NCBI GenBank assembly: GCA_031269345.1
Contig: JAISZH010000101.1
Span: 1 to 45,244 of the forward strand
Length of the DNA stretch: 45,244 nucleotides
DNA from: Desulfovibrio sp.
GTDB taxonomy: Bacteria > Desulfobacterota > Desulfovibrionia > Desulfovibrionales > Desulfovibrionaceae
Reading direction: 5' to 3'
The position numbers and the translations under genes are program-made. Below, in pieces: positions 3,262 to 41,825 of this stretch. Numbering within the stretch: position 1 is the first letter of the stretch; each line of letters opens with the position of its first letter. The notes below the pieces were generated by a model, which saw nothing but the letters and a program-made list of their open reading frames with translations, was not told where the DNA came from and did no database searches.

Positions 3262-3400
3262 TCGCTGCTTCGCTTGCTCCAATTTTGCTCCACTGACTTT
3301 GGCGACATCTGAATTCTCAAAAATTTTATGGATAAAGATTCATCTGATATTATTTGAATAAAACTGATAACCGGCAGAAATTATTGAGGGTAAAATCACT

Positions 3401-3488
3401 CTTGAAATGCTCTGGCGGCCGCGAGAGCGGGCGCCCGCCGCGAAGGCACAAGCGCAAGTTATTTGCGCTGCAAATCCTTGCAGAGTGG
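3401..3488 (+). repeat. Structured multi-hairpin intergenic repeat
   Basis: The gap after the endonuclease gene (3262-3515) has no gene. It contains a half-palindrome ending in ttgaaatgctctggcgg, a perfect GCGGGC/GCCCGC inverted repeat at 3427-3438, an AGCGCAA/TTGCGCT hairpin at 3451-3469 and the motif gcaaatccttgc. The same module order occurs at 20504-20563 and 36820-36878 with different stem bases. The ctctggcggccgcgagagcgg part also appears, reversed, at about 41781-41802. Confidence 0.65.
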
Positions 3489-10253: not shown

Positions 10254-10283
10254 GGAAACACTGATTGATTGGGGCTCCGCCCC

Positions 10284-11634
10284 ATAAGCGCTAACTAATT
10301 TTAAAAGCCCATGCAGGGCCGTCGTTTACGCGGCGGCTCAGCCAACTCACGCTTGATATTATGCCAATTTGAAAGAACGCCTCGTAAATCTTGATATGGC
10401 AGAATCACTGCCGTCAATTGGTGGAACATAAAGGCAAATTCCCTCCAGCGACTCCTTGTCAATTTCCTCGCACTCTTCCCTCCAGGGGGAAATTGCGCCC
10501 TCATAGGCGAGCAGTTTTTCTGTCAGTAGCGCGACGAATAGTTTTCCGTAAAGCCAAGCTTTCGAACTTTCGTCATCATATTTAGGCAAATGCCCGAATC
10601 CGGCCAATTGCTTAAATCTCTTGAACACAAGCTCAATCTGCCAGCGTAAACGATAGTAGTTGAGAATGGAGTCAATGGTGTGCTCTTTCTCAAATGTGGT
10701 GAATATTATTATATAGTCGGCATAAAACAACGTGCTCTCGCGAACATTGCGGCTGTTTTTATTGGCTTTGCGAAGGATCTTTTTGCGAGATTGTGCTGCA
10801 GCCTCGGCTGACTTGCGCATAGCGCATATCCGTCCTTTTACAGGTTTGCTGTCCTTACCGCGAATTTGAACATCCCATTCTCCAGCCATCCCAGCTGCGC
10901 TCAGTTTTCCAAGCTCTCCCAACAAGTCAAACTTGTCTCCATTTTTGTCGGCAAGGAGGACTGCTTCCGGCTGAAGGCGAACGGTTATGAAGCCTCCGCT
11001 ATCTACTACATACTCCAGGCCTTTGCCTCTGCAATACACACGATCAGCCAGGATATGGTCACCTTTGTTAATGGGAAACCTTTGCAAAGATTCGTTGCAG
11101 CCCTTACCTTTGATGCCACTGATTGAGAAAGAATCGCAACTAAAATCAGGCAGATTGATGCAGTAGTGAATCCTCCACTGGCTGCCTGTTTGCCCTGGCT
11201 CTTTTACATGAGTCGCGTCAAACACTCGGAGGGGCAGCTTGGCTGATTCCATATTTACTGTGCCCCTCTCGCCAAGAAGGGCCACACACATCGCATGGAA
11301 CCAGGGACCACATTTTTTAAGTCGTTTCATAAGCGCTACATCGGACATATCAGCCAACCCAGTTGCCTTGGCACGGGCGGCGGTTTCACGCAAAGAATAG
11401 CCACACGCGCAATGCAGCAACATTGTGCGCAGCAAAGAATCCGGCGACTTGTCTTTGCGCAACCCCTTCAACGCTCCATACTCCTGCGCAAGCTGAAGCC
11501 ATTTCTGAGGAAGGAAAGTCAGTAATTCTTGCCAATCATCTTGGATCGTAATTGTTTTCATGGGCAAACCTCCAAATGCTCGCTTGGGAAGGTTTACCAT
11601 AAAAATAAACAGAAGAAAACTAGTTAGCGCTTAT
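10284..11634 (-). mobile_element. IS4-family insertion sequence, complete, with 13-bp target duplication
   Basis: The element is about 1.35 kb with inverted ends ataagcgctaactaatttt (left) and the complement of aaaactagttagcgcttat (right), one mismatch over 19 bases. Both ends are flanked by ggggctccgcccc in the same orientation (10271-10283 and 11635-11647), a 13-bp duplication as known for IS4 members. It holds one transposase gene. Both ends and the gene look intact, so it may be recent. Confidence 0.85.
10359..11561 (-). CDS. IS4-family DDE transposase
   Basis: The 400-residue transposase catalyses cut-and-paste movement of its IS. Visible parts are the first catalytic aspartate in RVFDATHVKEPG, the second in HILADRVYCRGKG, and the IS4 signature with the glutamate in YYRLRWQIELVFKRFK. 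The N-terminal region (SLLRTMLLHCACGYSLRETA) fits the family's DNA-binding part. The track starts at 11600, but the ATG at 11561 is preceded by GGAGG at a normal distance and gives the expected beginning MKTITIQDDWQ. No frameshift is seen. Confidence 0.9.
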   Translation of the reverse strand: MKTITIQDDWQELLTFLPQKWLQLAQEYGALKGLRKDKSPDSLLRTMLLHCACGYSLRETAARAKATGLADMSDVALMKRLKKCGPWFHAMCVALLGERGTVNMESAKLPLRVFDATHVKEPGQTGSQWRIHYCINLPDFSCDSFSISGIKGKGCNESLQRFPINKGDHILADRVYCRGKGLEYVVDSGGFITVRLQPEAVLLADKNGDKFDLLGELGKLSAAGMAGEWDVQIRGKDSKPVKGRICAMRKSAEAAAQSRKKILRKANKNSRNVRESTLFYADYIIIFTTFEKEHTIDSILNYYRLRWQIELVFKRFKQLAGFGHLPKYDDESSKAWLYGKLFVALLTEKLLAYEGAISPWREECEEIDKESLEGICLYVPPIDGSDSAISRFTRRSFKLA

Positions 11635-11996
11635 GGGGCTCCGCCCCGAACCCCGCCGGGGGAAATGATTTCCCCCGGACCCCCTCAGCTGGGGGTCAGG
11701 GGAATCATTCCCCTGCTGAGGGAGTGTGAGGAGGTAAAGCCTCCTCACTGGAATAAATCAGTGTTTCCCTAAACATTTTCTGGGCCGGGCCGATAGATTC
11801 CATGTGGAAACAGGCCCTGAAATCAGACGCCGCGTTTCATACCAAGTCGCATCCAAACGAGTTTGAATGCAAGACGCCAAAAGGAATTTTTAACCAAGAA
11901 GGCAGTATGGGCCTTCAGGCCATGCGTCTTGCGGTTGGGCGGAATCGGGCTGTCCCTGCCTGAAGGCCGGGGTCTCAAACCGTAAAGGAAACTCAG

Positions 11997-20403: not shown

Positions 20404-21066
<663 letters not shown>

Positions 21067-21578: not shown

Positions 21579-21702
21579 GCTTTGTCCGCTCTAGCAGATA
21601 CCCCGTCGCACAAAGAAAATTGTACGCCGCATGGCGGCACTGGTCAGCCGGAAAGCGCACTTTCCGGCCTGATCCGATCCGCGCGTTGAAAAATTCTTTA
21701 CT

Positions 21703-21790
21703 GATACCCGCATTGAAAAGTAAACTCTTCCCTGCGGAGGATCGTCTGCCAAAAACGCGGTTTTCGGCTGACTTGCGCCGTGAAGCGGCA
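21703..21790 (+). repeat. Three-hairpin repeat element, copy 2 (degenerate stem)
   Basis: The stretch from gatacccgcattgaaaag to gccgtgaagcggc matches the elements at 23491 and, reversed, 24774 and 20570. Here the central stem has mismatches (GTCTGCCAAAAA against TTTTCGGCTGAC), so this copy is decaying. It lies between the HIT gene and hslV. Confidence 0.8.
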
Positions 21791-21972
21791 TGCGGCGGCA
21801 TACGCGCGCAACGGGCCGGATTCCGGCGCATACATATTTCCTGTTTATACCCAGGCGCGGTTTTGAGCAAGCCCTCCGTTTTCGACAATTTCCCTTGCCT
21901 TTACATTTATATCTCTACATCGTAATTTTTGGCAGCACGCCGGAGGGAAGGTCAGCAAACCGCAGAAGTTCC

Positions 21973-23475: not shown

Positions 23476-23490
23476 GTATGGCGTATTTAT

Positions 23491-23580
23491 TGATACCCGC
23501 ATTGAAAAGTGAACTTTTTCCTGCGGAGGATCGTCAGCCGAAAACGCGGTTTTCGGCTGACTTGCGCCGCTTCGCGGCGA
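23491..23580 (+). repeat. Three-hairpin repeat element, best-preserved copy
   Basis: Three stems lie in a row: GAAAAGT/ACTTTTT, then after cctgcggaggatc the perfect 12-bp stem GTCAGCCGAAAA/TTTTCGGCTGAC, then CGCCGC-TTC-GCGGCG. The same order is found at 21703, and reversed at 24774, 20570 and 36973. It lies 15 bases after ispE and upstream of tRNA-Gln. No ORF is plausible in it. Confidence 0.85.
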
Positions 23581-23646
23581 CAGCGGCCGCCAAGCCGCTT
23601 GCAGATTTTCATGCGGAAATTTGTACATATGAAATGGAATAAAAGA

Positions 23647-23809: not shown

Positions 23810-23846
23810 CCTCCGGAGCAATTTCAAAGTGAAATTGCTCCGGAGG
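23810..23846. terminator. Perfect 17-bp hairpin between tRNA-Gln and the radical SAM gene
   Basis: cctccggagcaatttca and its complement are separated by three bases. It sits between two converging units and may stop transcription from either, although no strong T run follows. The core agcaatttcaaagtgaaattgct also forms the hairpin at 41799-41825. Confidence 0.6.
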
Positions 23847-24751: not shown

Positions 24752-24773
24752 GCCGGACTCCTTCGAAATATAT

Positions 24774-24862
24774 GCCGCGAAGCGGCGCAAGTCAGCCGAA
24801 AACCGCGCTTTCAGCTGACTTGCGCCGCAGGGAAAAGTTTACTTTTCAATGTGGGTATCCAT
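24774..24862 (-). repeat. Three-hairpin repeat element, reverse copy
   Basis: Read on the minus strand it has the same modules as 23491-23580: gatacccacattgaaaag, GAAAAGT/ACTTTTC, the central stem (one arm altered, CTTTCAGCTGAC) and GCCGC/GCGGC. It lies in the 5' region of the radical SAM gene, 23 bases before its start. Confidence 0.8.
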
Positions 24863-25150
24863 AAGGCAACCTGACGGAAGACATAAAATAAGCACCAGAC
24901 GTCGTTTGTCCATAGGAGTGGAATAATACGCTTGGAATGTCAGCAAAAATTTGCTTGCCGGAAATTTCCCGTTCCCGGCTTGCCAAAAGGACAGCTTCGT
25001 GCCACAAGATGGCGCATCCAAAGATGAATCTGTTGTCCAACGTCGGCCGTTACCTCCGGGCCTATAAAACACACGCGCCCATACCTGCGGGTCTGCTTCA
25101 TGCTTTTTGCGCAAAGTCCTGAATTTGGCCGAAACAGCCAGGTGTGTCCG
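24863..25150. other. Gene-free gap before the heptosyltransferase
   Basis: The ORFs here (for example 24937..25122) have no ribosome site, no recognisable motif and overlap in other frames. I see no gene or clear promoter. Confidence 0.4.
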
Positions 25151-36779: not shown

Positions 36780-37068
36780 GCCGCCAAAGGCGGCATAATC
36801 CAACGAAACTCGCATTTTACGGCGAGCAAAGCTCGCTTGCAACCCTTTGGCGGCAAAGATTTGCCGCCAAATCCTTATAGCATTTACGCTTGAGATGCAT
36901 ACTATACGTATCGTGACGGCACTGCTTTGTGTTTACTTGCAAAAGTAAACACTACAAAACCCGAAGGGTTTTGCGCCGCCGTAGGCGGCGCAAGTCGGCG
37001 GAAAACCACGTTTTTCCGCCGACGATCCTGCAAAAATAACCATAAAAAATATGTTCGTTATTTTTGCA
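36780..37068. repeat. Array of about nine hairpins between rapZ and the EIIA gene
   Basis: Successive inverted repeats fill the gap: GCCGCC-AAA-GGCGGC (36780), GCGAGC-AAA-GCTCGC (36822), GGCGGCAAA/TTTGCCGCC (36849) plus aaatcctta, gcattt/gagatgc (36880), GTGTTTACTT/AAGTAAACAC (36929), AAAACCC-GAA-GGGTTTT (36956), GCGCCGCC-GTA-GGCGGCGC (36973), GTCGGCGGAAAA/TTTTCCGCCGAC (36994) and TGCAAAAATAAC/GTTATTTTTGCA (37029). Several correspond, with altered stems, to modules at 20404-20641. The last one may serve as terminator of rapZ. Confidence 0.8.
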
Positions 37069-37076
37069 ATCAGGCA

Positions 37077-38000
37077 CTAACCGAGTTCCAGATGCCTGTG
37101 TTCCAACGTGGGAAAATAGTTTTTTTCCCTGAACGCCTCGGCAAGAGCTTCTGCTACCGCCACCGAGCGGTGCCTGCCGCCAGTGCAGCCAATAGCCACA
37201 GTGAGCCTGTAGCGCCCCTCTTTTTCGTTCTGCTTCAGAATAAATCCCATAAATGCCTGAAGTTTGATGAAAAACTTCCGGCCCGGGTTGTTTTTAAGAA
37301 CATAATCCCGTACCGGCGCATCCAGCCCGGATAAGGGTTTAAGTTCAGGTATGAAATACGGATTCGGCAGAAAGCGCAGATCAAAGACCATGTCGGCTTC
37401 AGAAGGTGTCCCATATTTGAAGCCAAACGTGACAAGGTGAATTTTTAGGTTGCGCGTAAGCTTGCTGAACATGTTCCATTTGGTCTGGATAAGGCGGCGC
37501 AGATCGTGAATGGAATGAGATGAGGTATCCATAACCAGATCCGCGCTCTTGCGCACATGCCGCAGGCGATAGCGTTCCTGCGCCATGGCCTGCTCAAGTC
37601 CCAGACCTTCTTTTTCAAGAGGATGCGGCCGCCTGGTGGTCGCATAGCGTTTCAGCAGGACATCATTGTTTGCCTCAAGAAAAATGACGCGTGGTACAAT
37701 GCCCTGAGAGGTCAGGTCATTTAGCGCCCTGCCCCAGCCCTGAAGGAAATCGCTTTGGCGCAGGTCCATCCCCAGGGCTATGCCCCGATATTTATCCAGA
37801 CCGTGTTCTCGGATCATTTTCGCCATGGAGGCCGCGAATTCCACCGGCAGTCCGTCCACTGTGACAAAATTAATGTCCTCGAACACTGCCAGAGCGGTGC
37901 TTTTTCCGGAACCGGACAGGCCTGTTATGATGACTACGGCGATATTATTCGCCCCGGCAGCAACAGCAAGCGATCCTGGTGGAGGAAACCCGGCTGCCAT
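37077..38000 (-). CDS. rapZ: RNase adapter / nucleotide-binding protein RapZ
   Basis: RapZ proteins link amino-sugar metabolism to small-RNA decay in enterobacteria; in other groups the role is less clear. The 307-residue protein has Walker A ITGLSGSGKST (25-35), FVTVDGLP, the RYATTRRPHPL stretch, VTFGFKYGTPSEADMVFDLRFLPNP and the C-terminal signature IGCTGGRHRSVAVAE. It follows hpf by 12 bases; the ptsN gene often found between them is absent. Confidence 0.93.
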   Translation of the reverse strand: MAAGFPPPGSLAVAAGANNIAVVIITGLSGSGKSTALAVFEDINFVTVDGLPVEFAASMAKMIREHGLDKYRGIALGMDLRQSDFLQGWGRALNDLTSQGIVPRVIFLEANNDVLLKRYATTRRPHPLEKEGLGLEQAMAQERYRLRHVRKSADLVMDTSSHSIHDLRRLIQTKWNMFSKLTRNLKIHLVTFGFKYGTPSEADMVFDLRFLPNPYFIPELKPLSGLDAPVRDYVLKNNPGRKFFIKLQAFMGFILKQNEKEGRYRLTVAIGCTGGRHRSVAVAEALAEAFREKNYFPTLEHRHLELG

Positions 38001-41736: not shown

Positions 41737-41825
41737 GCCGGCTTGTAGCCGGCCCCTTTGAGATATCACGCCTGTTGGCGTCCGCTCTCGCGGCCGCCAG
41801 AGCAATTTCAAAGTGAAATTGCTCT
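41737..41825. repeat. Composite hairpin repeat between bamD and rlmD
   Basis: It holds GCCGGCT-TGT-AGCCGGC (41737-41753), ACGCC/GGCGT (41768-41781), the cggccgccagag module shared with 3407-3430 in reverse, and agagcaatttca-aag-tgaaattgctct (41799-41825), whose core equals the hairpin at 23810. The last hairpin overlaps the bamD stop codon. The reverse strand also contains acaggcgtgatatc, matching the unit at 5236. Confidence 0.7.

Follow-up and report, generated by a model that had tools for sequence, protein, structure and literature searches.

The repeats that recur between the genes of this Desulfovibrio genome are most probably, with a likelihood of roughly 85%, a non-autonomous, TA-duplicating DNA transposon, that is, a MITE of the IS630/Tc1-mariner type. 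They were followed from the window, the whole stretch of 45,244 nucleotides analysed here, into the Desulfovibrionaceae assembly that holds it (2.63 Mb in 203 contigs, 92% complete), and into further assemblies, mostly MAGs. Their recurrence is not a matter of chance: the end motif TAYWGATWYCCGCAT, allowing at most one mismatch, has 161 matches in this genome against none for the reversed control, and a BLAST-style search with the third copy of the window gave at least 40 copies at about 91% identity or more, these being the 40 scored among 168 first-look candidates. Direct reading of the genome's copies covered 629 kb of the 2.63-Mb assembly and yielded 87 matches, in a sample enriched for copies because some stretches were chosen for containing them. 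Copy numbers across the wider family are lower bounds, being "at least" values counted among the candidates scored in each genome. Several copies are located at contig ends in this assembly, and as contigs end inside copies both here and in the compared genome G013, the element itself limits the assembly of these genomes.

Architecture of the element and its copies in the window

Full-length copies of the subfamilies compared measure 137-183 bp and consist of five consecutive hairpins, HP1 to HP5. Alignment of related copies from this genome gives subfamily E1 a layout of about 140 bp, in which YTGATAYCCGCATTGAAAAGTAAACTTTTCCCTGCGG - AGGATC - GTCAGCCGAAAACGCGGTTTTCGGCTGAC - TTGCGCCGCTTCGCGGCG - ACAGCGGCCGCCGGGCCGCTGT - TCAGATTTCCATGCGGAAATCTG is bordered on each side by TA. 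Its terminal inverted repeats are imperfect (TAYTGATAYCCGCAT on the left, TACAGATTTCCGCAT on the right), and other subfamilies have longer ones. As the left end runs into HP1, and the right terminal inverted repeat is the 3' arm of HP5, both ends are buried in paired stretches once a single strand is folded. Each of eleven subfamily representatives folds into such a chain, with shuffle z scores of -4.4 to -12.1; the weakest of these folds, G037 and G017, form less clean chains. RNAalifold, applied to a MAFFT alignment, recovered the structure only in parts because the E1 and E2 hairpins misalign.

The five copies of the original prediction are all present in the orientations claimed for them (Table 1), each being found by the core covariance model, whose seeds included E1 and E3 sequences, at E<=3.6e-11. 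The order of stem, linker and stem was also correctly described, and the difference pointed out between the central stem of the fifth copy, GTCGGCGGAAAA/TTTTCCGCCGAC, and that of the others, GTCAGCCGAAAA/TTTTCGGCTGAC, is exact. The copies are therefore real, but the extent of the unit had been drawn too short, as copy 3 continues into HP4 and HP5 after the GC stem. Nor does the fifth copy lack the first stem, as had been stated: it belongs to subfamily E3, of which five copies were read, and which has an HP1 (TTGCAAAAATAAC...GTTATTTTTGCA), an HP4 and an HP5 of its own. Only copies 3 and 5 are full length within the window, copies 1, 2 and 4 being truncated at their 3' side.

Table 1. Copies of the element, their parts and a related remnant in the 45,244-nucleotide window
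Feature	Position	Strand	Evidence
Copy 1: left end, HP1, HP2; 5 bp downstream of a LapA-domain gene	20550..20645	-	profile, 78 bits; core model
Copy 2: left end, HP1, degenerate HP2 and HP3, 3'-truncated; between a divergent HIT-domain gene and hslV	21698..21796	+	profile, 98 bits; core model
Sixth copy, decayed, abutting copy 2; absent from the original prediction	~21624..21699	-	core model, 35.5 bits, E 5e-8
Copy 3: full-length E1, terminal TA at 23488-23489 and 23624-23625; between ispE and tRNA-Gln	23487..23625	+	profile 1-140 of 140, 146 bits; core model, 70.8 bits
Copy 3, HP1: CCGCA/TGCGG and AAAAGT/ACTTTT with an internal mismatch	23497..23526	+	sequence; E1 consensus fold
Copy 3, conserved linker AGGATC	23527..23532	+	comparison with the wider family
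Copy 3, HP2: 12-bp stem; most of the wider family has loop NCGYGG	23533..23561	+	family comparison
Copy 3, HP3: CGCCGC/GCGGCG	23565..23579	+	sequence; E1 consensus fold
Copy 3, HP4: AGCGGC...GCCGCT	23581..23600	+	sequence; E1 consensus fold
Copy 3, HP5: right terminal inverted repeat formed by its 3' arm	23602..23623	+	sequence; E1 consensus fold
Copy 4: left end, HP1-HP3, 3'-truncated, altered linker	24773..24864	-	profile match
Copy 5: full-length E3 with its own HP1, HP4 and HP5; left TA in the rapZ stop codon, right TA changed	~36928..37079	-	core model, 73 bits
Remnant like the 3' half (HP3-HP5) of subfamily E2, with palindromic end TTACTGATTTCTGCATAAATCAGTAA	20410..20511	-	profile, 28.8 bits

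Shortened forms also occur. HP2 and HP3 have been deleted in a similar manner, with both ends kept, from three copies (L179:10719-10805, L183:15008-15096 and L187:12290-12376), which perhaps represent a shorter mobile derivative. Two stretches of 48 bp (G000:C60:3792-3839 and G000:C123:6375-6422) hold two facing element ends and nothing else, and are perhaps minimal deletion derivatives.

Other repeats share these intergenic regions. The 3' part of copy 1 is replaced by a repeat, at 20501-20562 and joined directly to it, of a distinct family GGCGGGCAAAGCCCGCC...TTTGCCGCCAAATCCTTAT that recurs in the window at 36817-36878, and whose palindromic 17-mer has 20 strand-wise matches in the 629 kb of this genome. 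A further palindromic repeat, GAGCAATTTCAAAGTGAAATTGCTC, often followed by TGGCGGCCGCGAGAGCGGGCGCC, is found at 23816-23840, 41794-41824 and 3384-3435; since a 998-bp IS630 in the congener G006 (L265) has similar ends, TAGAGCATTTTAACTTTGAAA, the repeat is probably another IS630-type MITE. In addition, an inverted pair of GGGGCTCCGCCCCATAAGCGCTAACTAATTTT, at 10271-10302 and 11616-11647, flanks an ORF at 10359-11600.

Target duplication and candidate transposases

The clearest evidence of mobility comes from empty sites. Five independent insertions in three genomes have a paralogous, element-free flank within the same genome, in which a single TA is found, and the alignments run from the left flank through one TA into the right flank with no gap at the junction. 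These cases comprise three of this genome's own copies (L013, L022 and L025), one copy of G013 (L032, 97.6% over 82 bases) and one of the compared genome G004 (L232). With one TA at empty sites, and two at occupied sites, the elements are TA-duplicating transposons, and hence MITEs of the IS630/Tc1 type. Such behaviour towards a TA target is typical of the IS630/Tc1-mariner group. Orthologous regions of this genome and G013 also include copies present in one and absent from the other, but at about 75% identity these empty sites are too diverged for a base-exact reading, and the paralogous sites were therefore used. The wider target differs between lineages: all 13 copies read in G004 are flanked by C-TA on the left and TA-G on the right, corresponding to insertion into CTAG, while E1 insertions in this genome and in G013 mostly have T-TA on the left and TA-A on the right, corresponding to a TTAA target.

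Candidate sources of the transposase are common among the relatives. Of 15 congeners, 12 have matches to DDE_3, the IS630-type transposase domain; this genome is among them, with one good match, and one DDE_3 protein was confirmed as NCBIfam transpos_IS630. The IS630 ends that could be read were CTAGTGTCATGTTCTTGAA/CTAGTGTTGCGTTCTTAAA in G005, CTAGTACCTTGCGTCC in G001 and CTAGTGCGTTGACAAAG in G013, together with the right end of this genome's own IS630, CTAGTGTCCTGACAAGG. Five-hairpin elements of other genera start with CTAGTGTGATGTTCC or CTAGTGTGACGTCC and finish with ..GGAACGCGACACTAG or ..GGACGCGACACTAG. The element ends of four other genera (G019, G045, G037 and G056) share 10 to 14 of 18 positions with the G005 IS630 ends, and those of G004 share 12 of 18 with the IS630 of G001; among 3,100 TA-started 20-mers of the window, used as a control against four IS ends, at most one per IS end reached 12 or more. 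The likeness to IS630 ends is clear for these five, marginal for E3, and absent for E1 and G014, the ends of E1, the subfamily that predominates in the window, sharing at most 8 of 18 positions with the IS630 ends read, which is no better than chance. The IS630 of G005 (L269:1339-2544) itself sits inside a long palindrome, TTTAGCCTGTTGTGGGT-CTAG-ACCCACAACAGGCTAAA, and is thus a CTAG insertion at the palindrome's centre.

These observations suggest a mechanism in which a resident or former IS630-family transposase would bind the left and right ends, and cut and paste the element in trans. Among the end matches listed for this genome, no left and right pair lies about 1 kb apart as an autonomous E1 copy would have, and the same holds for the end matches listed in G004 and an autonomous copy with G004 ends. 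As E1 has no partner among the IS630 elements read, and no autonomous copy among the end matches listed, the E1 part of this mechanism is one that we infer.

A REP-like mobile element had originally been named as one possibility for the repeats. The empty sites with a single TA bear out the mobility, but not the resemblance to REPs, which, with REPINs, are moved by RAYT, a Y1 HUH transposase acting on single-stranded hairpins. The repeats are indeed short, palindromic, intergenic and of high copy number, as REPs are, and Y1_Tnp genes are present in 10 of the 15 congeners, that of G014 being a 220-aa frame that may be RAYT-like. However, four observations argue against such a system. Firstly, the search for an IS200-like RAYT that had been advised gave no Y1_Tnp match in this genome, which is 92% complete. 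Secondly, the Y1 genes read in relatives, at IS200-type loci, have no flanking repeat. Thirdly, insertion duplicates TA, an outcome foreign to IS200/IS605-type transposition. Fourthly, the GTAG head is missing, as the copies read start with TAYTGATA, TAGTG, TAGTAC or TACAAG. REPs are defined by their association with a RAYT and by a GC-rich palindrome with a GT(A/G)G head in front of it (PMC2817692). With no Y1/RAYT gene in the genome the repeats are therefore not REPs, and mobilisation by RAYT, already contradicted by the TA duplications, is extremely improbable.

Compensatory changes and the case for RNA function

The covariation on which the original prediction rested is statistically real. 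Across 27 subfamily representatives, eight of the 12 pairs of HP2 change on both sides, a number reached by none of 500 shuffles, with slid controls falling far lower. Within this genome, 32 copies of E1 carry eight double compensatory changes, where shuffles average 2.3 and none of 2,000 reaches eight, although some of the eight may be shared by descent rather than independent.

It does not follow that a folded RNA is under selection, as had been proposed. A functional structured RNA, such as an mRNA stabiliser, a leader or a small RNA, kept by selection and with mobility as a secondary property, would be consistent with the covariation of HP2 and with the conserved linker and loop. Yet G.U mismatches, which one strand selected as RNA should favour, are no more common in the stems than A.C mismatches: the counts are 33 and 40 in this genome, 20 and 30 in G004, where copies were picked by their HP2 pattern and HP2 counts are therefore biased to intact stems, and eight and nine between subfamilies. 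Pooled over copies, the totals of 53 and 70 give a binomial p of 0.15. As the two types are equally common, there is no sign of selection on one strand as RNA, and this equality is what drift at the level of DNA predicts. Paired and unpaired positions also vary alike in G004, with change rates of 5.8% and 5.1%; the corresponding rates in this genome are 4.2% and 8.2%, a figure that includes subfamily polymorphism outside the stems.

The genomic context points the same way. The elements are almost exclusively intergenic, and by the gene calls of a simple ORF and hexamer script, those between tandem genes lie in the same orientation as the genes in 14 cases and opposite in 11, with a further 19 in divergent gaps, seven in convergent gaps and four inside ORFs. 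This lack of orientation preference does not suggest a role as a transcript end or 5' leader, and was the ground on which such elements were ruled against. Rfam covariance models match only a tRNA in the window, and gave three sub-threshold matches, and nothing else, on the relatives' loci. Hence neither the mRNA-stabilising end nor the structured RNA of the original prediction is supported, and selection for a functional RNA seems improbable.

Copy 4 offers a different route to matching arms. Left of its HP2, in the place of the GATC linker of other copies, 15 nt form an exact reverse complement of the 15 nt on the right-hand side, a footprint that also speaks against RNA selection. To judge from its sequence, this copy looks like the product of a template switch, by which arms could come to match through mutation, with no need of selection. 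Template switching has been reported both to create and to repair hairpins (PMC8794818). The compensatory changes might then be purely mutational, with template switching homogenising the arms of quasi-palindromes without any selection on structure, an explanation compatible with a MITE. It is favoured by copy 4, and by the excess of compensatory changes over shuffles with no strand bias; however, some of those changes may have been inherited by several copies, and it leaves unexplained why the linker and loop of HP2 are conserved across genera, unlike the outer hairpins. In this pure form we consider it a serious contender, at a little under even odds. Our reading is instead that the covariation stems mainly from processes at the DNA level in mobile palindromes, perhaps together with selection on source copies, and that it does not prove an RNA function. 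Within the proposed MITE mechanism, matching arms are probably kept by replication template switching and by selection on the mobile source copies, rather than by any function of resident copies.

A conserved core between differing ends

Each lineage has its own version of the element, in which HP1, HP4, HP5 and the ends differ, as seen from partial matches in other genera and from a GTDB-wide pattern scan whose matches fell exclusively in Desulfovibrionaceae records. What is constant is a core, comprising the GATC linker, whose GATC is retained by 22 of the 27 wider-family representatives; HP2, with the upper stem GAAAA/TTTTC and the loop NCGYGG; and CACGCCGCC, which leads into HP3. The core covariance model was positive in 47 of 199 genomes of the family, representing 21 of 44 genera, and all 53 positives in a class-wide sample of 297 genomes belonged to Desulfovibrionaceae. 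Outside the family, the exact E1 pattern was found in no other GTDB genome and in no viral contig, the core pattern was likewise found in no viral contig, and the elements of two relatives had no match in plasmids.

Conservation is higher in the core than in the ends, the reverse of what a plain deletion-derived MITE would show. Either the core has a role in mobility, for example by keeping the ends paired or as a binding site for a host factor, or it is a cargo to which various IS630-type ends have become attached. In the latter case, and still compatibly with a MITE, it may be a protein-binding or regulatory cargo, such as a host-factor site or a Dam-type GATC switch, repeatedly picked up by IS630-type ends. 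The sharing of the core across 21 genera, with differing ends and outer hairpins, favours cargo, as does the intact GATC in most linkers, and there is precedent in the IHF sites of Correia elements and the GANTC of Caulobacter repeats (PMC2229807). Set against this, several predicted folds pair the left end with that linker, for instance AAGTGAT with ATCGCTT in G014, a pairing that could be part of the reason for the linker's conservation in some subfamilies. Such a cargo is therefore a possibility of which we are less than convinced. The proposed mechanism would have the linker, HP2 and HP3 act like an exchangeable module, joined to different IS630-type ends in each lineage; that this core is a functional cargo moving between unrelated IS630-type end sets within Desulfovibrionaceae is a still more tentative suggestion, and on balance unlikely.

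The arrangement is similar to those of several known repeats, although it is identical to none. The RUP (repeat unit of pneumococcus), a MITE associated with IS630-Spn1, is likewise an intergenic element of about 100-200 bp in about 100 copies, with TA at its insertion site, ends like those of a resident IS630, and strong base pairing (PMC2229807; PMC3049150). However, the published picture of RUP is of a tight fold in which the inverted repeats pair with each other, whereas here there are five separate hairpins, and a core conserved over at least 21 genera while ends differ by lineage. The Correia/NEMIS elements share a TA target, inverted repeats, an internal motif, a mostly intergenic location and, as a feature of Correia elements, a folded transcript (PMC2229807), but no relation in sequence was seen, and they are set apart by the description of Correia-type repeats as a stem-loop of 5' and 3' ends, rather than a five-hairpin chain, and by their restriction to Neisseria. 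The BOX elements of Streptococcus pneumoniae are also short repeats built from modules and rich in secondary structure (PMC3049150), yet BOX varies in the number of its modules, whereas full-length copies here are fixed in number and order, and it is the sequences of the modules that are replaced. The CIR repeats of Caulobacter and Brucella combine separate hairpin arms, a linker and a conserved methylation-type motif (PMC2229807), with two arms and GANTC in the loop, rather than five hairpins and GATC in the linker.

The papers searched held no description of a Desulfovibrio element of this kind. Desulfovibrionaceae thereby gain a family-wide MITE system that is found neither in Rfam nor in those papers. 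If the core does prove to be a cargo, a regulatory or protein-binding module would have been spread throughout the family by whichever transposase was present. The system is a natural test case for two questions: how the interiors of MITEs persist while their ends are exchanged, and whether covariation in palindromic repeats can arise from template switching instead of from selection on RNA.
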